From Tricholoma matsutake (lineage: Eukaryota > Basidiomycota > Agaricomycetes > Agaricales > Tricholomataceae): a stretch of DNA of 64,000 nt. Positions 3,141 through 43,530 of the stretch are shown here, in pieces. The translations under genes were made by a program, and so were the position numbers. The notes under the pieces are model-generated. The model was not told the DNA's origin. It did no database searches and saw only the letters and a program-made list of their open reading frames with translations. Every line of letters begins with the position of its first letter. Positions within the stretch are counted from its first letter, which is position 1. The stretch is from positions 1,364,001 to 1,428,000 of the forward strand of contig AP026549.1 in assembly GCA_026075535.2 (NCBI GenBank), in the 5' to 3' direction.

Positions 3141-3314
3141 CTAAACAGGGGGGGGAGGGGGTGGTGGTGCATCGCATTGGCTGTCTCATCAGCCCTGTCC
3201 CATCGTTTCCCCTCCCTCTCATCTCTGTCATGTCTCACCTCCCTCACCTTGCCTCGCCCATGGCTTCCCTCCCCTCCCTCGTCTCCCCTCCCTCGTCGTT
3301 CCACCCACTGTCCA

Positions 3315-4014
3315 TGTTACAATTTTCTGTTATTGTAACCCACGATGACCAGACATACATCGGCAAGGCCGGGCACTTTAATTTTTCTATTCGACTCGAC
3401 TCACCTCCGACAGAAGACGCCTTGACGCATGGTGACTCCATGCACCTGAACCCACTCCCACATGCACCGTGGTACGACAACCCCTTTACATGAGGTCCAT
3501 GACATTGGATCCTTGACATTGGATCCGTGACATCGGATGCCTCATGCAAGGCATGAGGCCTGTCTTTTCTACTGTTCTTTCTATTTATACTTGATAATGA
3601 TCCTACATTCCGATTGGACGATAGACATCTTTGAACCATATATAAGCTGTAGTAATACTGTCTGTATTCCTCAGCTTGACCTAATTCAACCAATGGTCTT
3701 AGACTCAACCAGAACACTCGACAACTAAGGAAGTCCCTTAGTTGTGATACACTCAAACTCGACAGCTTAGGAAGCCCCTAGCTGTGATAACCCGAACTCG
3801 ACAGTTGGAAAGCCTCCAACTGTGATACATGAACCAATGGTCTACTCAGAAAGCCTCTGAGTACAGAAAGCCGTGACAACTTGAGGAAGTACCCAAGTGA
3901 AGGCAGGAAGCCCGATACACTAGGAAAGTCTCCTAGTGCGATACGAGACAGTTGGAAAGCCTCCAACTGTAACACATGAAGTCAAGGCTGAGTTAAAGAC
4001 CTATAGTCTTAACA
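3315..4014 (+). repeat. 5' LTR of chromovirus B (700 bp)
   Basis: It begins TGTTACAATTTTCTG and ends AGTCTTAACA. A TATATAAG box lies near 3638-3645, so transcription probably starts near 3665-3675, which puts the hairpin array (3721-3970) in the transcribed R-U5 region and in the 5' untranslated leader. It differs from the 3' LTR by scattered transitions and by a rearranged duplication between roughly 3500 and 3550 that makes the 3' LTR 47 bp longer. Confidence 0.95.
3721..3970 (+). other. Array of about seven stem-loops in the 5' LTR
   Basis: Hairpins with 5-nt loops repeat about every 39 bp. Arms and loops are 3721-3730/3736-3745 (10 bp, AAGTC), 3762-3771/3777-3785 (9 bp plus one bulge, AAGCC), 3801-3809/3815-3823 (9 bp, AAGCC), 3843-3850/3856-3863 (8 bp, AAGCC), 3879-3886/3892-3898 (7 bp plus bulge, AAGTA), 3918-3925/3931-3938 (8 bp, AAGTC) and 3948-3956/3962-3970 (9 bp, AAGCC). 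Stem sequences differ while pairing is kept. Many stems are preceded by CTCGACA- or GAGACA-like bases and followed by GATAC. The array is repeated in the 3' LTR. Confidence 0.9.
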
Positions 4015-4304
4015 AAAGGTCAAGCTGATCTACAAAGTCCACCTACCTAGGTGCAGACACAACGTCTTTCAGACAAAGCCCAGACAGACCTCCGACAGGA
4101 GCATCGACATCAGGAAGAACCTCGTGGTATAGATACCAAGGTCGACTAGTACGATACTCAGAACCAGCACAAAGGTGGTTCTCGAAGTGAACAGAAGATG
4201 AGGAACCAAGATACCTCACTGAAGAAGACTTCAGATCGACAAGCAAAGAAGAAACCCCAGAACGAGACCCATTCTCCTTATCCAACGACGACATCCCCGA
4301 TAAC
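4015..4304 (+). other. Leader between 5' LTR and gag of chromovirus B
   Basis: No coding signal before the gag start. The bases after the LTR (AAAGGTCAAGCTGATC) do not resemble a tRNA 3' end complement. A short palindrome, CACCTA..TAGGTG, lies near 4041-4054. The segment would be the rest of the 5' untranslated leader and may hold packaging or priming signals. Confidence 0.5.
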
Positions 4305-5156
4305 ATGTCTACTGAACCCACCACATCAAACAAGGAGATTAGAATCTGAACCCCCTCCGACTTCACAGGGGACCGAACCAGAACTGCAAAGTTCTTACAA
4401 GAAGTGAAACTCTATCTGAGAGTAAACCATGGAATCTATGACACAGATGAAAAGAAAATCATCTTCGCATTGTCATTTATGAATGGAGGAATCGCTGTGC
4501 CCTGGGCACAGACATGGGCAGAAAAGGAAGACCTAGGGACATGGTCAACCTTTGAAGCGGCACTCAAAGTAGCATTCACCCCAATCGATGAAGCTGGCAG
4601 AGCCAGAACCGAAATGAAAACACTAAAGCAGGGACAGGACCTGGAGGATTACATTGTGCAATTCCGAATCCTGCAAGAGAAGGCGGGGATCAATGACAAT
4701 ACTGCCCTGATCGAACTCTTCATGGATGGGTTAAACCCCAAGCTCCTTGAAAGAGTATTCAACATGGAAACGATCCCCACAACCCTTGAGGGGATGATCA
4801 ACGCTGCCTCCAAATATGACGGACAATGGAGGAGAGCAAAAGCGATAACTGGGAAATTACAGGAGAGCTGGGCGAAGAAACTGGCGAACTCTAAACCAAA
4901 AGAAACCCCACTAGAAATCGACCGACTCTCTGACCAGGAGAGGGTCGAACACATGAAGAAGGGGCTATGCTTTGTGTGCCACCAACCCGGGCACAGAGCA
5001 ACCAAACACAAGAAAGGGGAAATGAGAACCGAGAACCAGTCATTCCCAAAGAAGAAAGGCGAAGAAGCCTACTCGAAGATCTGAGCAATCATAAAGGACC
5101 TCGATGAAGAAGAAAAGAAAGAAGCTCTCACCGCAATTGAGGATGAGGGTTTTTAA
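4305..5156 (+). pseudogene. gag: gag of chromovirus B (283 codons, two TGA stops)
   Basis: Structural particle protein. The ATG at 4305 is the first in a frame open to 5156 apart from TGA at 4347-4349 and 5082-5084, both where CGA would restore arginine. A retrotransposon gag domain spans about codons 35-190 (FALSFMNGG, then LKQGQDLEDYIVQFR and LFMDGLNPKL). A zinc knuckle follows at about codons 222-235 (CFVCHQPGHRATKH); its last ligand is His rather than the usual Cys, which could be a lesion or a variant. The frame ends in TAA straight after GGGTTTT, the proposed site of -1 slippage into pol. Confidence 0.88.
5147..5153 (+). promoter_or_regulatory. Candidate -1 ribosomal frameshift heptamer joining gag to pol
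   Basis: GGGTTTT sits in the correct X-XXY-YYZ register of the gag frame (G GGT TTT) one codon before the gag TAA at 5154-5156. Slipping back one base leads straight into the protease frame (LKRWPASMPGTTEL and on). GGGUUUU is a known class of slippery heptamer in other viruses; a downstream stem or pseudoknot was not modelled. Confidence 0.6.
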
Positions 5157-8100
5157 AGAGGTGGCCTGCCTCGATGCCAGGTACCACCGAACTTTCCATC
5201 TGCTCTGTACTGCTAGCCACTTTGAAAAATCAATCTATGTGCTTAGATGTCAAAGTGGCAGGGACAGGCAGAGGAAAAGACATTGAAACCGAAGCCCTAC
5301 TCGACTCAGGAGTGGGAGGGATATTCATGAGCCATGAATTTGCAGAAAGCAGTGGATTCGAATTGCACCCAGTAATCAGAGTCAAGAATGTGGATGGAAC
5401 CCCAAACAAGAGAGGGGAAATCTCCCACTGTGCCAGAGGACTCTTAACGATCAACGGAAGGACTTTCCCAATGACCTTCCTGATTGCAGGACTGGGAAAG
5501 GAATCAATCATCCTAGGTCTGCCATGGCTCAGAAGAATCAACCCAGTGATCGACTGGAAGATTGGAACCTTCCAGTTCAGGATGAAGGACGAGACTTACC
5601 CAGAGTTCTCATATGGGAAAGGAAGAACCCTTATCGGAAGGGTGCGAACCGAGAAACCCAATGAAGGGTACCTATCATGGCGCCAGAGGGGAACCAAAAA
5701 GAAGAAGGACCCCTTCGACATGATGAAAGAAGAGCGACAGGCATGGTGCTGAAAGATTGTTGCCAAAGAACAAGAAAAGCAAAAGCTCGCCCTCAAGAAG
5801 AAGACTGCTGAGGAAGAATGAGCACGATGGAAAAAAGTGGCCACCAGAGAACTGGAGAGACTGGCCACCAGAAAAGAAGAAGGACGACTGGCATCAGCCT
5901 GAATAGTCGCAAAACTAAGGGAAATGCTTACCCCGAAGAAAGAGAAACCAATGAATGAAGAATGGCGAGCAGATTGCCAAAGAATCATCACCAAGGCAAG
6001 ATTAATGGGGGGAGCCCTCCATGCTGAACAAGAGGAAGCAAGATGCCCATCGAGACAAGAAAGGCGATGATCGAAGAAATAGACGATGAAGAGATCGCAA
6101 TCACGACTCTTCAGAACGCGGAACCCATTGGGCCGCAAGACAAAGAAGACACTGGGAAGGAAAACCCAGCACAGGCAAACCACGAACAGGCAATGGAACA
6201 GGCAATGGAATAGGCAATGGAACAACTGAAAGAGACACCTGAACCAAAGATCGAAGACAATGAGCTACTGGTCGCCTACATCTGAGGAGAACCCATCATC
6301 AGAATATTCGAACCAGCTAGGACACCGCTGACAGAGGAATATGACGAGCCAAGATATGGATATTCTCAGACGACAAAGAAAATCTCTCAGATCATGAAGG
6401 CAAAAGGATCACCGCGATATGCTTATGGACAAAACATCTGGATTAGGGCAAAGACATCAGTCTCTCAACACCTGACACACAAGAAGGAAGGAGACCCCAA
6501 ACAGAAGACCCTAGATGAACTACTCCCCGAACAGTACAAGGAGTACCAACAGATATTCGAAAAGGAAGCATCAGAACAATTCCCAGAATCAAGACCCTGG
6601 GATCATGCAATCGAACTGAAACCGGACTTTGTAGTGAAGGATTGCAGGGTTTACCCATTGTCACCGGCAGAACAGAAGAAACTCAACGAGTTTCTAGACA
6701 AAAGCCTGCAGAAAGGATACATCCGACCATCGAAATCGCCCATGGCATCGCCATTCTTCTTCATTGCGAAGAAGGACTCGGACACGCTATGACCCTGCCA
6801 AGATTACAGGTACTTGAATAATGGAACAATCAAGAACACCTACCTGCTGCCACTGGTAGGAGACCTGTTGGACAAACTAAGAGGGGCAAAATGGTTTACA
6901 AAATTGGACATCTGATGGGGATATCACAACGTCAGGATCAAATATGGAGATCAATGGAAAGCAGCCTTCAAGACAAATTGGGGGCTGTTTGAGCCAACGG
7001 TGATGTTCTTTGGATTATGCAACTCACCAGCGACCTTCCAGGCAATGATGAACGAGATATTCTGCAACATGATCAGAGAAGGATGGCTCATGATTTACAT
7101 GGATGACATCCTGATATTCTCCAAGGATCAGAATGAACACCAGGAAAGGACAAAGAGGGTACTGCAAAGACTGGCAGAAAACGACTTATACCTGAAGCCG
7201 GAGAAATGCAAATTCGATGTCCACAAAGTGGAATTCTTGGGTCTGATCATCCGACCCAACGAAATTGCCATGGACAGCACGAAACTGGCAGGTATACAGG
7301 ATTGGTCAACCCCAACAAATGTAAAGGCAGTCAGATCTTTCCTGAGATTTGGAAACTTCTACAGGAAGTTTATCGGACATTTTGCGGAGACATGCAGACT
7401 GCTTAATGAACTGATGAAGAAGAACAAGACGTTCGACTGGACAAAAGAATGTGAACAGGCCTTTCAAACGCTGAAAAGGAAATTCGCAGAAGCCCCAGTA
7501 CTGCTGATGCCAGACCCAACAAAGCCATTCACGATCGAATCAGATGCCTCAAAACATGCGACAGGAGGAGTGCTGAGACAAAGGGACACGAATGGGGACT
7601 GGCACCCATGCGGATATATATCGCATGCACTAACACCAATGGAACAGAACTACGAGATCTACGACAGAGAGCTACTGGCGATAATACGATTGCTAGAAAC
7701 CTGGAGACACTACCTGATGGGTTCAGAACACCCAGTGGTAATCCTGTCGGATCACAAGAACTTGACGTACTTCTGAACGGCACAGAAACTGAACAGGCAA
7801 CAGGCAAGATGGAGCTTATTCCTATCGGAATTCGACTTGCAGATCATCCATGTGCCTGGATCACAGATGGTACAGAGCGATGCGTTATCACGAAGACCAG
7901 ACCACATACCAGAAGAAGACAACGATAATGAAGACGTCACAATGCTGCCAGAAACAGTATTTGTGAAATTCATTGACACCGAAATGCATGACTTACTTGC
8001 AGGGAGTATCATGAAAGACGATCTGGTGAAAAGCGCAATCAAGGCGCTAAACACCAAAGGAACACTGCCGATAAAGTCGGCATTGGAAGACTGGAAGATA

Positions 8101-9423
8101 GAAGACGGCCTTCTATTCTTCCGAGACAGGTGCTACATCCTGGACAATGGAGAACTACGGAAGAAGCTGGTGCAAAAATACCATGAAGGAGTAACCAGCG
8201 GACACCTGGGACAATGGCAGACTACCAAAATGATCAGGAGGGACTACTGGTGGCCAGGAATGATGACATACATCAAGAACTATGTCACTGGATGTGCCAC
8301 ATGCCAGAAAATGAAGGTCAATACCCACCCGACGACACCCCCACTGCAACTGATCAAATCCGAAGCAACGAGACCATTTGCGATGGTGACGACAGATTTT
8401 ATAACCGACTTGCCAGAGTCCGATGGTTATGATGCACTCATGGTCGTTGTAGACCATGGGCTTATGAAGGGGGTAATTTTTATCCCTTGCAGGAAAGCGA
8501 TAGATGCATTGGGAGCGGCCACCCTCTACCTAGACAATGTCTACAAACGATTTGGCCTCCCAGACAAGATCATCTCCGACAGAGATCCCAGATTCGCCTC
8601 ACAGCTATTCCAAGAGCTAGGAAGGCTGCTTGGAATCAAGCTGGCAATGAGCACAGCGTACCACCCCCAGACTGATGGGGAGACAGAACGGGTGAACCAG
8701 GAAGTGGAAGTATACCTACAGATCTTCTGCTCGAACAACCAGGAGAATTGGAAGCACCTCCTCCCAACTGTGGAGTTCACACACAACCAGAGGACACACT
8801 CCATACAAAAGAACTCCCCGTTCTACCTCATGATGGGCTATGAGCCCAAGGCGATCCCACTCCCCTACCTGAAGCCAAACATACTGGCCATAGCAAAATG
8901 AATAGTTGCACTGCAATGGGCCCGAGACGAAGTGAAGGCAACTCACGAGTTGGCCAGACAAATGATGGCGGAAAGAACGACAAGGCACTTCACCCCGTTC
9001 AAAGAAGGAGACAGAGTGTGGCTAGAAGCGAAAAACCTCAGAACGACACACCAAACCAAGAAACTTGCACCGAAAAGAGAAGGACCATTCTCTATCAAGA
9101 AGGTCCTGAGCCCACTCTCCTACCGACTGAAGCTGCCAGAACAGTGGAAGATACACCCAGTGTTCCACGCAGTGCTCCTTTCCCCATATAAAGAAACCGA
9201 AACTCATGGACTGAACTTCCCAGAACCACTGCCCGACCTGATAGAAGGTGAATCGGAGTATGAAGTGGAAGCAATCATTGGACATAAGAAGAAAGGAAGG
9301 ACCATGCACTTCTTAGTGAAGTGGGTCGGATACCCAACCTCAGAGAACTCCTGGGAACCTGAGGGAAACCTGAAACATGCCAAGACAATCCTAGGGGCAT
9401 ATAAACAGCGACGACAGCTGTAG
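5153..9423 (+). pseudogene. pol: pol of chromovirus B: protease, RT, RNase H, integrase, chromodomain
   Basis: The protease (ALLDSGVGG near 5300-5325) is in the frame reached by -1 slippage. A charged, repeat-bearing linker (5750-6390) holds one frameshift between about 6005 and 6065. RT follows with [16 protein letters not shown] and intact YMDD (about 7099-7110), then RNase H (IESDAS, DRELLAI). Integrase keeps its zinc binding H/H/C/C (HEGVTSGH, CATCQK) and DDE residues (TTDFITDLP, SDRDPRF, GETERVNQEV). A C-terminal chromodomain (YEVEAIIGH...WEPEGNL, about 9255-9400) makes it a chromovirus, a type known to target histone-marked chromatin. Stops at 5750-5752, 6790-6792, 6913-6915, 7774-7776 and 8899-8901 are TGA at arginine positions; one TAG replaces CAG near 6210. 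Confidence 0.93.
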
Positions 9424-9493
9424 AAACCAAGACCAAAAACACCCACCAAACCGACTACAGAAGGACCACCCCTAGAAAAGAAAAAGACGAACC

Positions 9494-9772
9494 ATGCTCA
9501 CTGGAATAGAGATTCTTGCCATTGTCGTTGGCACGATCCTAGCTGTTGTGACAGCCCTTACCTTCGCATTCTGCCTTTACGCAATCTTTCGACCAAGACC
9601 CAAACCCCCGATTACAGACATTGAATTCTCCATCCTACAATGCCCTATGGAGAACCCATCTCTCTACGAGAATACCACCCCACTGACACCACTGCCTGAG
9701 GCAGCACAAACCAGAAGAACCCAATCGTGGTCCGAGTTCAGACACGAGTTATTCCTCCATTGCACCCCTTGA
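9494..9772 (+). CDS. Small single-pass membrane protein ORF downstream of pol in chromovirus B
   Basis: A 92-codon ORF from ATG 9494 to TGA 9772, 70 bases after the pol stop and about 100 bases before the 3' LTR, the place of env or an accessory gene. Residues about 6-32 form one strong hydrophobic segment (ILAIVVGTILAVVTALTFAF), followed by a basic-proline turn (RPRPKPP) and a 55-residue polar tail, suggesting a tail facing the cytosol. There is no signal-peptidase-like site or glycoprotein ectodomain, so it is not a classical envelope protein. Unlike gag and pol it has no internal stop. No family is recognised; chance openness over 92 codons is possible. Confidence 0.55.
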   Translation: MLTGIEILAIVVGTILAVVTALTFAFCLYAIFRPRPKPPITDIEFSILQCPMENPSLYENTTPLTPLPEAAQTRRTQSWSEFRHELFLHCTP

Positions 9773-9873
9773 CCCCAGCCCATTCACCTATCCAGACCAC
9801 ATCTGACCAGACCCTGGAGGAGGAACGAAGATGTTATTCAAAGTCAGTGACTTCGAAGATAGAGAGAGGGTGA

Positions 9874-10620
9874 TGTTACGATTTTCTGTTATCGTAACCC
9901 ATGATGACCAGACGTACGCCGGCAAGGCTGGGCACTTTAATTTTTCTATTCGACTCAACTCACCTCCGATGGAAGACGCCTTGACACATGGTGACTCCAT
10001 GCACCCGAACCCACTCCCACATGCACCATGGTATGACAACCCCTTTACATGAGGTCCATGACATCCGATGCCTCATGCGTAGCATGAGGCTTATCTCTTA
10101 TTGTTCTCTGACATGCTGCACTGCAGCACTCTGTGGCATTGGACGCCTCATGCAAGGCATGAGGCCTGTCTTTTCTACTGTTCTTTCTATTTATACTTGA
10201 TAACGATCCTACATTCCAATTGGATGATAGACATCTTTGAACTGTATATAAGCCATAGTAATACTGTCTGTATTCCTCAGCTTGACCTAATTCAACCAAC
10301 GGTCTTAGACTCAACCAGAACACTCGACAACTAAGGAAGACCCTTAGTTGTGATACACTCAAACTCGACAGCTTAGGAAGCCCCTAGCTGTGATAACCCG
10401 AACTCGACAGTTGGAAAGCCTCCAACTGTGATACACGAACCAACAGTCTACTCAGAAAGCCTCTGAGTACAGAAAGCCGTGACAACTTGAGGAAGTACCC
10501 AAGTGAAGGCAGGAAGCCCGATACACTAGGAAAGTCTCCTAGTGCAATACGAGACAGTTGGAAAGCCTCCAACTGTAACACACGAAGCCAAGGCTGAGTT
10601 AAAGACCTATAGTCTTAACA
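9874..10620 (+). repeat. 3' LTR of chromovirus B (747 bp)
   Basis: It begins TGTTACGATTTTCTG and ends AGTCTTAACA, matching the 5' LTR throughout, including the hairpin array at about 10327-10576. Within the array the first loop reads AAGAC instead of AAGTC and the rest are unchanged. It has extra sequence near 10060-10140 (a duplicated ATGAGGC-type block) absent from the 5' LTR. Confidence 0.95.
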
Positions 10621-11190
10621 GTCCACCCCATGAGCAGTTGCTCATGAGGCTGGTGGTGTGTGGTGCATGGTATGTTGGTGGCAGTGTTTGTCCATCATCC
10701 CCTCCCTCCCTCCCCCTCCCCTTGAACACCCTATGAGCACAGCCCTGTCCCATCGTTTCCCCTCCCTCTTGTCTCTGTCATGTCTCACCTCCCTCACCTC
10801 GCCTCCCCCATGGCTTCCCTCCCCTCCCTCGTTGTTCCACCCACTGTCCACCCCACGAGCAGTTGCTCACAAGGCTGGTGGTGCATGGTGCATCGTATGT
10901 TGGTCATGGTGTTTGTCCATCATCCCCTCCCTCCCTCCCCCTCCCCTTGAACACCCTATGAGCACAGCCCTGTCCCATCGTTTCCCCTCCCTCTTGTCTC
11001 TGTCATGTCTCACCTCCCTCACCTCGCCTCCCCCATGGCTTCCCTCCCCTCCCTCGTTGTTCCACCCACTGTCCACCCCACGAGCAGTTGCTCACAAGGC
11101 TGGTGGTGCATGGTGCATCGTATGTTGGTCATGGTGTTTGTCCATTGTCCCCTCCCTCCTTCCCCCTCCCCTTGAACACCCTATGAGCAG
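10621..11190. repeat. 225-bp tandem repeat within repeat X copy 1 (about 2.5 units)
   Basis: Units start at GTCCACCCC at 10621, 10846 and 11071, giving a period of exactly 225 bp; the third is cut short at about 11180. Each unit has a GAGCA..TGCTC hairpin, a CCCTCC-rich tract and a CATGTCTCACC block. Copy 2 of X has a single unit at 28096, so the array expanded in copy 1. Open frames of up to 180 codons here arise from the period being divisible by three. Confidence 0.88.
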
Positions 11191-11502
11191 ATGCTCATAG
11201 GCATGCATGGGGTGTCGCCATTGTCTCCCCTTCTGGTCATTGTCTCCCTTTCCCCTTGTCATTTTGTCACCCTTGTTGTTCATCCCCCTCATCATCTGCA
11301 CCCATGAACCACCCTATGGGCAGCTGCTCATAGGCATGTCATTTGGTGCTGTTGTCATCCCTCCACACTGTTCCCATGTTCTCACACCCCATATACACCC
11401 CGCGAGCAGTCACTCACAGCGGTGATGGGGGGTGCTGGATGTCATTGGTGTCGTGGGGGGTCCATGCACTCATGATTCACCCTACGAGCAGCAGCTCGTA
11501 GG
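11180..11502. other. GAGCA..TGCTC hairpin modules of repeat X copy 1
   Basis: A perfect palindrome with 10-bp arms (CCTATGAGCA/TGCTCATAGG) spans 11180-11201. A one-mismatch version lies at 11313-11334, and one with 9-bp arms (CCTACGAGC/GCTCGTAGG) at 11481-11502. A weaker member is near 11399-11416 and related ones open each 225-bp unit. Spacing is roughly 90-160 bp. The same series is in copy 2 at 28105, 28210, 28361, 28449 and 28528. Confidence 0.7.
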
Positions 11503-34373: not shown

Positions 34374-36653
34374 CTATAATAGATGCCCTTGACCCATAGC
34401 ACAAATGCAAAAGTATTTGGGTTTGAGTAAGGTAACATTTTTATTGTCCTCCTCCACCCCCCTTTTATGATCAATACATCTGGATAATGCATCTGCTTTC
34501 CTCATTAAGCTTCCTGCTTTGTGGACCAAGTGAAAATTGAAACGCGATAGGAATAGTGCCCAATGTGCTTGCTGGCGATTAAGCTTTTTAGCAGACATGA
34601 AGTATTGCAGATTTTGATGATCCATCCAGATCTCAATCTGATGCATACATCCCTCCAGATCTCAATCTGATGCATACATCCCTCCAAATAATGCCTCCAC
34701 ACCTCCAATGCTCGTATTATCCCCAACATCTCTTTGTCATGCACATCATAATTCCTCTCCACATCATTCAACCCTTTTGACAAGTATGCACAAGGATGCC
34801 ATTTGTCATCTTTGCACAGCATTGATAATACCGCTCCAGTAGCAAAATCAGATGCATCAGATTCCACTCGCAAAGGGCATGTGAAATCTACTGGGGCTAA
34901 TATTGGTCCCTCCACAAACTTCCTCTTCAACTCCTCAAACACTGTCTGCTGCTGCTCTCCCCACCTCCATACTACTCCCTTTCGCGTAAGGTTATGTAAG
35001 GGTGTGGCAATTTTAGAAAAATTGTGCACAAAGCGACGATAATAATTTGCGAGTCCCAAGAAGGCTTGAACCTCCTTGACACAGGTGGGTGCAGGCCAAT
35101 CTGTGATCGCCTGTACCTTGATTGGATCCATTTTGATCCCATCAGGGCCGATCAATAATCCTAGGAACTCGATCTCACTTGCCCCAAACACACACTTCTC
35201 TGGTTTCAAAAATAGATCATTCTCCACCAACCTCCTGCACTATCACCTCATGATTCTCTTCATCCTCTGTGAATATCGGAATGTTGTCAATAAATATTAT
35301 TACCACGCCTTTGTCTATTATGTCCTTGAAAATGTCATTCATCATATTTTGAAAGGTCGGGGGACTATTAGTCATCCCAAAAAACATGACAAGCGGCTCG
35401 AAGGATCCTCGACGCATGGCAAATGCAGCCTTCCACTCATCTCCTTTCTTTATTCGTACATTGTTGTATCCCCATCGTAAATCCAATTTTGTAAAGACCT
35501 TGGCTTTTCCCACCTTATCAATTATTTCTGAGATCAATGGCAGGGGGTATGTGTTCTTCACTGTCCACTCATTCAGATACCTATAATCGGTACACATCCT
35601 CTTTCTTTGGTCTTTTTTGGGCACAAAGAATATTGGTGATGTCTGCGGTGATTTTGAAGGTCGTATGTATCCTTTGCGCAATTGCTCCTTCAGGAATGCA
35701 TCCACTTCTTCTTGTTCCATCAGAGATAATGGATATACCTTTGACTTCTTCGGTACAAACCTGGGCTTCATCTCAATCGCATGATCCCATGGCTTCTGCA
35801 CTGGCATTCGCTCAGACTCCTTCTTTTGGAACACTGACAAATGTTCATGATACACTTTTGGCACCCATTCCTCCACTGGCTTCTCCACCTTCACAATATT
35901 CTTGTCCCATGACTGTCCTCCACGAACTGCTCTAAAGGTTTGCTTTTGCTCTTCTTTCTCGATCATGATCGGAACTTCCCCATTTGGCATTTCCTCATCC
36001 TCTACTTCCTCCATTGTAACAGAATACTTTCTTGGATGTTCTTTCTCTTTCTTTTTCCTTTTTTCTTTCTTCATCTTCCTCCCATACACATTATATTCCT
36101 TAGGACAACGAGTCATTTGTACTTTCCCAGTTTTCCAATCAATTTCGGGATTATGCTTCTGTAACCACGGACATCCTATTATTAGATTGGTTTTCCCAAG
36201 ATCGGACACTTCGAATACGGCTTGCTCCTGATGCTCCTGATACTTTAGTACCATAGTCACCTCCTCCTTGATAGTTCCTCCACAATTGACTGTTCCATCA
36301 ATATTGTACACCATTATAGGTTGCACCAGCTTGCATGTGTTAATACCATTTCTGGTAATTAAGGATCGATTAATAAATAATCCTGTAGCACCACTGTCAA
36401 GCAATGCTTCCACATCAATAGATGCATGCGTGTCCACTGTCTTCAGTCCCACAGTCAAGGTAATTTTGGGTTCTATTTGCGCAGAGTGAATAAAGAATTT
36501 AGGGGTTTTCGGAAATGACATGTGACAATTTTCTTTGTCACATGATTTGCAACAGTTGTACTCCTCCTCGATTTCCTTTTCTGATTTACTCTGGGTTTCC
36601 TCGGATACTAATACATTGTAATGATTCTGGGTCACCAATGGGGAAACCTTCAC
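34374..36653 (-). pseudogene. pol: pol of gypsy C: protease, RT, RNase H; no integrase
   Basis: 36653-35217 holds a CX2C-type cluster ([11 protein letters not shown]), protease ([15 protein letters not shown]), a basic linker, and RT through [10 protein letters not shown] and [12 protein letters not shown]. Motif C reads FIDNI where YMDDI is expected (second catalytic Asp to Asn, codons at 35283-35288). A frameshift near 35220-35230 moves to the frame 35230-34505 (LFLKPEKCVFG, RVESDASDFA, DKEMLGIIRALEVWRHY). A 29-bp tandem duplication (34626-34654, 34655-34683) shifts the frame again; RNase H continues at 34646-34374 to LSRCIDHK and ends. The pol frame begins at a GTG overlapping the gag stop. 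Confidence 0.9.
34626..34683. repeat. 29-bp perfect tandem duplication in gypsy C pol
   Basis: The unit CCAGATCTCAATCTGATGCA... (29 bases) occurs twice back to back without a difference. As 29 is not divisible by three it breaks RNase H. The identity of the units means the event is recent. Confidence 0.95.
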
Positions 36654-37747
36654 TGGGACTCTTCGACAAAATTCTTCTGCCTGCCTTCCTCTGGCTTCAC
36701 TTCCTCGATTGTAGCTTCCCTAATCTTTCTTTTCTGCTTGCAATTCTTAGAAATGTGTCCTAACTGCCCACAGTTAAAACATTTAAGTGGGGCTCGTCTC
36801 CCCACTTGATCAACCTCCATTGCCTCTGCTGGTGCTGCTGACTCTGTAACTATAGGTGTCACTGCCATGGCCAGTGGCTGTGCCCTCGGAGCTTGCGCCT
36901 GAGGCGCCTTTCCTTTCTCGGACTTTCCTCCTGATGACTTTCCAAATTTACTACTTCCGTACATCAACTTTGACTCTGCCTGTTCCTGCCGATATTGCCG
37001 GTCAAGGTGCATTGCCCAATTATACCACTCGTCCAACTTCTCTGGGATAGAAGGTAGTCGGTAGATAGACTTGAATAAAGAGGGATTTAATCCTGCTTTC
37101 AAAAACTCTACCAACGCGGCTTCTCCCATGTCCGTTTGCAAAGCTTCTGCTTTGAACTGCAAAATAAATTCATCCGCCGTTAAGGAACCTTGGCGCATGG
37201 TCTTTAATTTAGCATTGGCTGTTGCCTTTGGATTAGGGTCTCCAAACTGTGCCTCCAATCTCTCCAGAAATTCCTTGAAGGTTGCAAATGGTTTATTTCC
37301 TGCAGCAATTTGATTAATAGCCTCATTTCTCCAGAACTGTGCTTTCCCCCCCTGAATGTATGAGAGAGCAAACATAATCCTAGACTTGGCTGTACAAAAC
37401 TCTGGCTTCCTCCCATGGATGTACAATACTATAGAGCTGATGAAGGATTTTGTATTCTCCATGGTACCATCAAAGATTTGCAGGGGCGTGTACTTAGGTA
37501 AGTGCACTTTTCCATTTCTGGATTTCTCCACTGTCTCATCCTCCTGCAATATCCACTCCACCATCTCCTCCATCTCATCATCTTCTTCTCCTGTCATCTC
37601 TGGCTGTACTTCTGCTTGTCTGGGCTGTGATGCTGCCAATACTGACACTAATTGCAACATTTGCGCTGTGAGCGCATCAATTTTTGCCTCTAGTGCTGGT
37701 ATGGGAACAGGATTAGGACCAGGATTAGAAGTTGAAGGTTCGGACAT
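36650..37747 (-). CDS. gag: gag of gypsy C (365 aa, intact)
   Basis: An uninterrupted frame from ATG 37747. It has a short acidic-proline N end, a coiled region ([22 protein letters not shown]), the retrotransposon gag core at about residues 90-260 ([48 protein letters not shown]), an Ala/Pro/Lys-rich linker and a canonical CCHC knuckle near residue 325 ([14 protein letters not shown]). It ends four bases into the pol frame, which is in the -1 register; no classical slippery heptamer is seen there. This is one of the few open TE genes in the window. Confidence 0.9.
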
Positions 37748-37883
37748 AATTGTAGAATTTGTGATGAATCACTTCTTCGACAAATTCAAAATTTTTCTTC
37801 GAGACCTCTCCAAACATTTATGGGTCACGTGATAAGGTTCGTCGAGGTTCATCAATGGTTCGTCGTTCGTTGGGCGCCTATTT

Positions 37884-40758: not shown

Positions 40759-43530
40759 GACCCAAGGAGACAACCTATCACTGTCCTACCTGCTGCTGCC
40801 ATCCCACCTGCCACTGCCATCCCACCTGCCAATGCCATCCCAACTGCCGATGCCTTGAACAACAGTTATATTCATGTGGTCCATACAAATGGAATACATC
40901 ACTTAGCGATGGTTACCTGCCAGTGTCAGGGGGAACACCGAATTCCCTTGGACCTGTAACCAGTAACTTACTACCCACAAGCTTCACCAACATATGGACT
41001 CTGTTCACCGTGCAGGTCCTAGACCATTTTTGGCTCTGCAATCTGGAATTAAAGGCATCAGCCTATCAGTTTTACCAGCTGATTCAGCGTGTAACATTGC
41101 CAATGAGGCCTGCCAAAGTGGTCAATCTCTACCATGAGCTTTGGCGCATGTCCTGCCTATGGTGTTGCTGTGTTGGATGAAAAGATTGAAGTGGGCAGGG
41201 TATGGACACAATCAAAGAGATCCTTTGAATCCTGAACCAGGATCACTTGCCAATTTCTGTCCAGCCTGTCCTCAAGTAGGCATTAATATACCAGAAAAAT
41301 GGAAGGATGATGTGAACCAGTGGGTGTCAAAATACCTCAGTGCAGTGGCATCTAAAATGATACTATGCAATGCAGATTTGTTTTTAAATGCATATTCGTG
41401 GCCGATGGCAATTTCAAAGCTGATCATGTTCGGCAGAAAAACTCCAATACTGATATATGGCTATGGGATGGAGGTGGGATGGCCCCAAATCAGGCTGAAT
41501 ATAAGGTGTTTCTCCAAGCGGCTATAGAACAATTAACAGTAGGTACACCTTCCCTTGGTGGTGGCCAATGCCATTCCCAATGCTGTCCCCAAAGCCGGTC
41601 TGATTTGTATTTGGGTTTCCAGAAGGCTCCTTGCAAAAATAAATTCCTAGCTGTTGTGAATGCTTTTCTGGCATTGAAGGCATGTGACAGGACTGGAGTA
41701 GCAGCCATTGCATGTGCACAGCATGGATGTTATGTGCCCAATGCATTGGTAGACCTATTTCGTGGAGAACAGCAAAAGAATGTTGACTTTGCTTTCCTTC
41801 AAGAGCTGAAGACCACCAGAGTTGACCCTCAACAGGGAGTCATGCTCATTTACAACATTGTCTGCCAGTAAATTATCCACCTTCAGGAACATATTGGTGC
41901 CCATCTTCCGGCTGGCTTGACCATTGACCAGGCCATTGGGCTTATGCATGTTCATGGCCACAAGGATGAATGCTTTTTTTGCTATGCTCCTTCTTTCATT
42001 CCAGGGTCCGGCATTGTAGCAGGAGAAATACTTGAGTCTCTGTGGGCATCACTGAATTCCATTTCCCCAATGGTCAGAACAGCAACCTTGCCACATCGGG
42101 CAGAAATGCTTGATGATCATGCTACAGATTCAAATCACAAGAAAATGCTTGGCATGACAGTCACACTCTGCTCAAAATCTTGGGAAGCCCTTGAGAACTC
42201 TACACAACTTGGCCAATACCATGGTGAAATAATGGCAGCATTTGGCCAACTGGCAATCGAACGATGGGAGGATGAAGTGAGGGCAGCAGAATCCCTAAGG
42301 TTCACAGATATCAGGGTAATGGATATGTATGCCACTCACATATCAGAAATGGCATTGGGAGCGGGAGTGGGCATGGGATCGGCCTTCAATTTGGCATCAG
42401 CACTGGTTCATTCCATGGTCGAGGAGTGGATTTGATTTTGCTATTCATTTTGAACAAATGTAGTGAGTTGTACTGCCTACCACCGATCACAACCCATCAT
42501 TGATTGTCACCAGGATTGAATTATGAGACAAAGTCTGTTGACTTGGTAAATCACCTCACATTTCTGACATGCAAGCTGTTGAATGGGAAAGAGAAGCTCT
42601 CACATCTCACATAGTAACCTTAACACAGTTACAAAATGCTGCTGACACTGCCAATCATGACATTGCTCCCTCATGGATCACCTGTGATAATGAAGGTGAA
42701 TTTGATAACCCCAGTGACCTGGATGATGACAGGGATGTGGCATCAGGCCTGTCAGATCTCCCAGCCAACACACATGCTATTCCAGTTGAGGAGCAACAAG
42801 TATACCTCCCCTCCACAAGATCTAGGCAAGCCAACTGCTGCACCAGCTGTGGGAGCTCATTGCTGACAAATCATTTCAATATTCACACATCATTCAAGCA
42901 GCACCACAAAAGGGAATTTGCACCTGGTCACAAGACAAAATTGGCTTGCATGCCCGAATGTATAACCATTGCTGTAGCCAATTGCTGGCACTGGATTGTG
43001 ATGATGACACATTGAGTATGTTTCAGCAGTTAACCAAGGATGACCTCAATGCCAGCACAGCTATTTTGAATCCAAATATACCTGGTTCCACCTCTCTTTG
43101 TCTGTCCTGGATTTGGCATAATTCCCACATTTGTACTGGTCTCATGGCTGATGGTGGTGCTGATGCCAATGCTGCTGCCAATGCTGCTGCCAATGCTGGC
43201 TGATTCTGGGAATGTAAATATATTTTGTAGCCATCCGTATTCATTGTACTAACATTTTTCATAGTCAGGTGAGTACATTGGCTTTGTTCATGGGCTCAGA
43301 GAAATCAATGGAGGGAGGAATTTCTACTGGTCACATATGAAATGCAATGGATTGTGCAGTATTTCATCTATCACAGCCAATGGTGGCAGTCAGCCTTGCA
43401 GTCTGAGAATATCCTTCCTGGTCTGCTAGCCTATGCTAATTGCCAGCACGCTTCATGGTATGAATTAGCATTGAGGGCTGACAATGCATTTAGATCAACA
43501 AATGCCAATTATATCTCCCCTCTGTGACTG
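40750..43530 (+). pseudogene. KDZ transposase, degenerate multi-exon gene
   Basis: Family hallmarks in order: CxC-type N region (VTCQCQGEHRIPLDL, then SFTNIWTLFTVQVLDHFWLCNLELKASAYQFY, VNLYHELWRMS), SLANFCPACPQVGINIPEKW at about 41245-41300, FVADGNFKADH at about 41395-41425 (first acidic catalytic region), HGCYVPNALVDLFRGEQQKNVDF and LIYNIVCQ at about 41720-41870, HGHKDECFF..GEILESLWASLNSISP at about 41950-42075, LDDHATDSNHKKM, then a C-terminal helical region ending MQWIVQYFIYHSQWWQSAL near 43340-43400. Frames change at about 40960, 41370, 41875, 42900 and 43210; some may be introns, others lesions. It catalyses cut-and-paste transposition in the family. Confidence 0.84.

Follow-up and report, generated by a model that had tools for sequence, protein, structure and literature searches.

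What is a row of hairpins, each with its own stem and nearly the same five-base loop, doing inside the long terminal repeat (LTR) of a fungal retrotransposon? The question is raised by a Ty3/gypsy chromovirus of Tricholoma matsutake that spans positions 3315-10620 (+) of the window, the whole stretch of 64,000 nucleotides analyzed here (Table 1). Pfam recognizes four of its six gag-pol pieces (Ty3 capsid/Gag, RT, RNase H, integrase domains, a Tf2-1-type SH3, and a chromodomain), with the integrase zinc domain above the Pfam cut-off and the integrase core match below it; the other two open pieces have no Pfam match, and the Pfam zinc knuckle was not matched in Gag. Viral contigs searched with one RT piece returned no relatives of the element. 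A tandem repeat of period 225 seems to enclose it (window 3190-3314 and 10618-11292), with three copies to the right of the 3' LTR, the third 62% alike, and a 96% alike piece to the left of the 5' LTR. Elsewhere the window holds a second, truncated Ty3/gypsy element (34505-37768, -), which has a gag with a Pfam zinc knuckle and, judged by eye, a tRNA-type primer-binding site (PBS) before gag, as well as pieces of a KDZ (Kyakuja-Dileera-Zisupton) transposase at 41356-42435 (+).

Table 1. Positions in the window of the element, the signals of its leader, and its hairpins
Feature	Position	Strand	Remarks
Target-site duplication GTCCA	3310-3314 and 10621-10625		flanks the element
5' LTR	3315..4014	+	700 bp; ends TGTTAC...TTAACA
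TATA box TATATAAG	3639..3646	+	first base 33 nt before primer C (3672)
Self-primer TCAGCTTGACCT, presumed RNA 5' end	3671..3682	+	12-nt complement of the PBS; in the predicted fold
Closing (second long-range) helix, 5' strand	3695..3707	+	pairs with 3989-4001
Hairpin H1	3721..3745	+	10 bp, loop AAGTC; extra unit, present in 5/48 alignment rows
Hairpin H2	3762..3785	+	9 bp plus bulge, loop AAGCC
Hairpin H3	3801..3823	+	9 bp, loop AAGCC
Hairpin H4	3843..3863	+	8 bp, loop AAGCC
Hairpin H5	3879..3898	+	7 bp plus bulge, loop AAGTA
Hairpin H6	3918..3938	+	8 bp, loop AAGTC; subfamily B has two fixed compensatory pairs
Hairpin H7	3948..3970	+	9 bp, loop AAGCC
Closing helix, 3' strand	3989..4001	+	pairs with 3695-3707
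LTR-end hairpin AAGAC-CTATA-GTCTT	3996..4010	+	competes with the closing helix
PBS AGGTCAAGCTGA	4017..4028	+	2 nt after the LTR
gag-pol remnants, several open pieces	4350..9423	+	capsid/Gag, RT, RNase H, integrase, SH3_Tf2-1, chromodomain
3' LTR	9874..10620	+	747 bp; carries the array too
Array copy in 3' LTR	H1 10327-10351, H3 10407-10429, H4 10449-10469, H6 10524-10544, H7 10554-10576	+	

The earlier note on this DNA described seven stem-loops with five-base loops (AAGTC, AAGCC, or AAGTA) inside the LTR, and this description holds: seven hairpins occupy 3721-3970 of the 5' LTR, their centers 31-41 nt apart. Five are perfect (10, 9, 8, 8, and 9 bp), and units 2 and 5 have a one-base bulge (9 and 7 pairs). 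The flanking bases, also described as common to the units, are shared in part: only units 1-3 are preceded by ACTCG, GATA(C/A) stands after the same three and, one base shifted, after unit 6, and units 4, 5, and 7 differ. A second copy of the array lies in the 3' LTR, 6,606 nt downstream. Relative to 5,000 dinucleotide shuffles, which contain 0.015 perfect hairpins (stem >=7, loop 5) on average and at most 1, the stretch 3718-3974 contains five, and the folding energy of the array stretch departs from shuffles by z = -6.4 (sense) and -4.8 (antisense). When the perfect units of the window copy are compared pairwise, 33 pairs differ on both sides, 41 are identical, and none differ on one side, the zero being due to the choice of perfect stems only; their loops agree at 39/45 base comparisons. 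No further array was present in the 64-kb window among the 25 perfect 5-nt-loop hairpins listed, Rfam covariance models gave 0 matches at E <= 1 against 3300-4400, and a bacterial model detected no tRNA or tmRNA in the window. A potential anti-loop partner, GRCTT, is not enriched (1.84 per kb in 4015-5100 versus 1.89 in 5100-9873).

A context absent from the earlier note is that the self-primer is the exact 12-nt complement of the PBS; shuffled versions of the PBS average 6.4 nt, and 12 is reached by 0/300. This complementarity therefore points to an element that primes itself in the manner of Tf1 and whose R-U5 leader carries the array between primer and PBS. The distance from the first TATA base to the primer is 33 nt in 77/77 array places with TATATAA (another 10 of the 87 places are without it in the stretch examined, and some places repeat) and in 38/38 sampled 5' LTRs with a leader. 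Together, the TATA spacing and the self-primer suggest that RNA starts near 3672, upstream of the array. The array had been placed downstream of the TATATAAG box in a presumed 5' leader, which agrees with these positions; a transcription start downstream of 3970, named at the time as contrary to that reading, does not. This PBS follows 32 of the 87 array places and not the other 55, which comprise 3' LTRs, solo LTRs, and short pieces left unsorted.

The two LTRs of the window element differ at 37 aligned sites in U3 and 8 in R-U5 (17 and 4 outside CpG). Across four LTR pairs, U3 diverges more than R-U5, mainly at CpG, and non-CpG differences number 33/1262 in U3 versus 18/1274 in R-U5 (p 0.03). 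U3 itself carries a palindrome, GCCTCATG-N5-CATGAGGC, once in the 5' LTR (3539-3559) and twice in the 3' LTR (10070-10090 and 10145-10165).

The array is a property of a large family. In the genome searched (161,040,721 bases, 13 contigs), the pattern of LTR end plus PBS marks 414 junctions with <=2 mismatches, and the reversed-pattern control marks 0; copy numbers are lower bounds, with genome searches scoring only the best candidates. Forty junctions were sampled from 100 listed of the 414: contig 1 contributed 36 of its 43 listed junctions, and contig 2 its first 4. All 100 match the pattern exactly, hence all 40, and the 7 contig-1 junctions left out lie mostly near places already found by similarity searches. 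AAGY-loop hairpins occur in 40/40 sampled junctions, as detected by a scan that anchors on AAG[CT], with two to seven units each (six units in 25 junctions, five in 7, four in 3, three in 2, seven in 2, and two in 1). Two loci with a 383-nt R-U5 (L036 and L037) carry an extra H2-type unit that is, by sequence, a unit duplication, and three (L128, L136, and L151) have short arrays.

We aligned 38 of the 40 junction loci with 9 of 20 fetched subfamily-D loci and the window copy, the last of which supplied the structure; the leader is absent, by rearrangement or deletion, from the remaining two junction loci (L133 and L135), which were kept out. The resulting 48 rows are related, and their cells do not count as independent events. 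Standard pairs account for 97.0% of cells versus 95.4 in shuffles, two-sided changes affect 11 pairs and 48 cells versus 5.2 and 9.7, and the covariation score is 0.073 versus 0.049, with 0/500 shuffles reaching any of these values. Of the five covariation measures, only the count of further pair types stays at chance (31 versus 29.9, reached by 146/500 shuffles). Sliding the partners by 1-3 columns lowers pairing to 30-39% and leaves at most 6 pairs and 8 cells two-sided. In subfamily B rows H5 lies shifted, which lowers its paired count. The 48 copies thus support the proposal of the earlier note that structure is under selection while the loop stays constant, and the family-wide alignment that the note recommended as a check for uncompensated stem decay uncovered compensating changes instead.

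Several of these changes can be followed individually. The H6 stem reads CACTAGGA/TCCTAGTG in subfamily A and CAGTAAGA/TCTTACTG in subfamily B, and the outer pair of H5 changes from A-T to G-C or G-U in nine subfamily-D rows. Stem CAGTTGGA/TCCAACTG stands against CAGTCAGA/TCTGACTG in L134, L150, and L152; in these loci, and possibly others, an H1-type unit occupies the H2 place, so some two-sided changes represent unit replacement rather than substitution. Among 134 unique arrays there are nine distinct perfect 8-bp stems, six of them in >=3 arrays, and the basal pair of H7 is A.C in 26/75 arrays. Paired changes of this kind might also be mutational in origin. Arm-to-arm template switching can yield two-sided changes in one step, and palindromes corrected in this way would accumulate them without selection. 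Such a process predicts neither the slower change of stems and loops relative to spacers nor the presence of hairpins in 40/40 sampled elements, and we consider it very unlikely to account for the array.

The rates of change themselves separate the parts of the array. In the 48 copies, loop positions 1, 2, 3, and 5 vary at 0.3, 0.6, 1.7, and 2.0%, and position 4 varies at 15%, yet is C or T in the loops listed; outside CpG, spacers vary at 8.3% and stems at 3.3%. Among 75 unique arrays, subfamilies A (51), B (11), and C (10) were compared by majority base, and three odd-length arrays were left out. Subfamilies A and C differ at 0/102 stem, 1/30 loop, and 18/132 spacer sites, and subfamilies A and B at 9/101 stem, 2/30 loop, and 24/130 spacer sites. 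Of the nine A/B stem differences, four make up the two compensated pairs of H6, a further four are located in H5, which is shifted, and the last is the lost basal pair of H7. A loop that persists on changing stems suggests recognition of the loop itself rather than mere spacing, and the preservation of the stem sequence itself between subfamilies A and C implies that selection is not on pairing alone. As far as sequence comparison goes, these patterns indicate that evolution keeps both folding and loop across the genome copies.

Inverted repeats are present in the DNA just as they are in the RNA, and the hairpins could in principle be cruciforms or protein sites in LTR DNA. Single transitions in stems, with 30 G.U versus 20 A.C, do little to decide against this, as the excess is too weak as proof that the sense RNA is the selected form. 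A reader of duplex DNA, however, suits the unit-to-unit differences of the stems less well than a loop reader does, and DNA-level palindromes leave unexplained both the helix that closes the array and the position between primer and PBS that is kept in 38 copies; we regard them as quite improbable.

The RNA reading draws instead on the predicted architecture of the leader. In the window copy, the primer:PBS duplex is predicted to close the leader, with the closing helix inside it and the array filling the loop. Across 38 loci, the closing helix has a mean duplex energy of -18.9 kcal/mol, compared with -8.1 (sd 2.7) when its 3' strand is shuffled. The best folds of the window leader and of 6/11 other copies, the 11 having been picked as variants and not at random, contain it; in the other five (L119, L127, L136, L141, and L151), the LTR-end hairpin replaces it. 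The two structures use the same AAGAC bases and are mutually exclusive, and could form a switch.

This geometry is what a pure RNA scaffold or insulator would offer, in which local folding by the hairpins would bring together the primer and PBS of a long leader and the loops would have no partner. In keeping with it, the 38 sampled leaders have their hairpins between primer and PBS, and in the predicted folds one or two long-range helices enclose the array. Nevertheless, in a nearest-neighbor model the primer:PBS pairing probability is 0.99 in the native leader and averages 0.99 in 60 leaders with a shuffled array, 16/60 of which equal or exceed the native value; since the duplex forms equally well either way, no scaffold role is visible in that model. 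Loop bases are also kept far better than spacers, which a scaffold alone would not favor. The earlier note had listed a priming structure among its possibilities, and of this the location of the array, between self-primer and PBS, stands, whereas a contribution of the array to priming finds no support in the shuffled leaders or in a second family that looks self-priming and has no array.

That second family resides in the same genome. Five places encoding SH3_Tf2-1, whose downstream stretches were examined, belong to it and not to the array family. Its LTR measures 366, 426, and 426 bp in three copies, and no hairpin with a stem >=7 was found in the LTR of five copies. A 10-nt stretch, AGAGTTTTCT, lies 51-111 nt before the LTR end and is complementary to bases after the LTR (0/300 shuffles); the post-LTR stretch used here is that of the large majority of places listed, from 1,928 matches in total to a pattern that requires a G 21 nt on. 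Like the array family, it has a Tf2-1-type SH3 and an LTR stretch complementary to the bases after the LTR; it differs in its primer, in a TATA 28 nt before the primer, in the short distance from primer to LTR end, and in the missing array. It thus seems to prime itself from a short leader, and the array would be an addition of the array family rather than a need of self-priming. The scaffold is an unlikely explanation, given that this family, whose self-complement is 10 nt long, gets by on 51-111 nt and lacks an array. Judged from LTR length alone, the second family may be marY1 itself, for which a published account gives an LTR of 426 bp (PMC10211490). The same figure led us to reject marY1 as the identity of the window element, with LTRs of 700 and 747 bp. 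At one locus (L111, reverse complement, about 880-1100), a hairpin-array LTR in the opposite orientation adjoins an LTR of the marY1-sized family.

Other roles in the leader deserve mention, including dimerization by stem exchange, control of gag translation, and control of poly(A) or RNA stability in R. The array lies in R-U5, 5' of gag, and its units are stable at -6.1 to -13.6 kcal/mol each, both of which suit such roles. Nothing specific favors translation, poly(A), or stability control. Dimerization had been suggested in the earlier note; in the form of kissing loops it is doubtful, as AAGYC is not self-complementary and cannot pair with itself. Taken together, we judge roles of this group unlikely.

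We therefore return to a reader of the loop. Our preferred reading, to which we give an even chance, takes the region as the R-U5 leader of a Ty3/gypsy chromovirus that primes itself and the array as a multivalent platform for an RNA-binding protein of the element. Transcription would start at the self-primer, and the primer:PBS duplex would prime reverse transcription by analogy with Tf1. The hairpins would present the AAGYC loop repeatedly to a protein encoded by the element, most likely Gag and less likely RT or integrase, which would mark the genomic RNA for packaging and compact the leader; Gag binding and packaging were among the roles listed in the earlier note. With repeated binding sites, the number of hairpins may vary without loss of kind, and the two to seven units in the sample are as expected. 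A more specific version, possible but put forward tentatively, is a tunable multivalent assembly array, in which two to seven interchangeable AAGYC hairpins would be shown to Gag inside the self-primer loop and would couple packaging and the start of reverse transcription in one RNA domain. Should a protein of the element indeed read the loop, a fungal retrotransposon would carry a packaging code in repeated form. To our knowledge, little is known of how self-priming elements mark or organize their genomic RNA beyond a few yeast models, and here one genome offers the comparison: 414 junctions (40 sampled, with 2 to 7 units), subfamilies with compensated stems, and an array-less family that looks self-priming.

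Finally, the element can be set beside known systems. In published descriptions of the Tf1/sushi chromoviruses, the RNA 5' end serves as a self-primer complementary to the PBS after the 5' LTR (PMC10085805, PMC7175516, PMC4600332). The window element agrees with this group in a PBS complementary to its own presumed RNA 5' end and in its chromodomain, RT-RNase H, and integrase, and its likeness to the Tf1/Tf2 type extends to a second helix that joins the U5 end to the leader and to a Tf2-1-type SH3. Relative to the three duplexes of the Tf1 "pretzel", duplexes 1 and 2 can form, whereas for the third, 3' of the PBS, the best candidate in a single tested copy reaches -17.6 kcal/mol, no stronger than the mean of -18.6 for shuffled sequence. 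The hairpin array inside the leader belongs to the window family and has no counterpart in the excerpts of Tf1/Tf2 descriptions compared. Sireviruses likewise carry several palindromes in one LTR; there, the repeated motifs lie upstream of the TATA, mostly share a constant CGG-CCG core, and have been interpreted as signals for transcription (PMC2829016), whereas the array lies downstream of the TATA, is without that core, and combines variable stems with a constant loop. The packaging signal of MMTV, in which Gag recognizes looped-out purines together with the PBS region (PMC8096270), is a single bifurcated stem-loop in a retrovirus rather than a repeated array, and serves as an analogy only. 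A covarying array of constant-loop hairpins in a self-priming leader was not encountered in the literature searched, which was partly aimed at matsutake, marY1, packaging, and Sireviruses, with the original Tf1 structure papers outside its scope. Self-priming with a structured leader is already known, and what the matsutake element adds is a covarying array of constant-loop hairpins within that leader.
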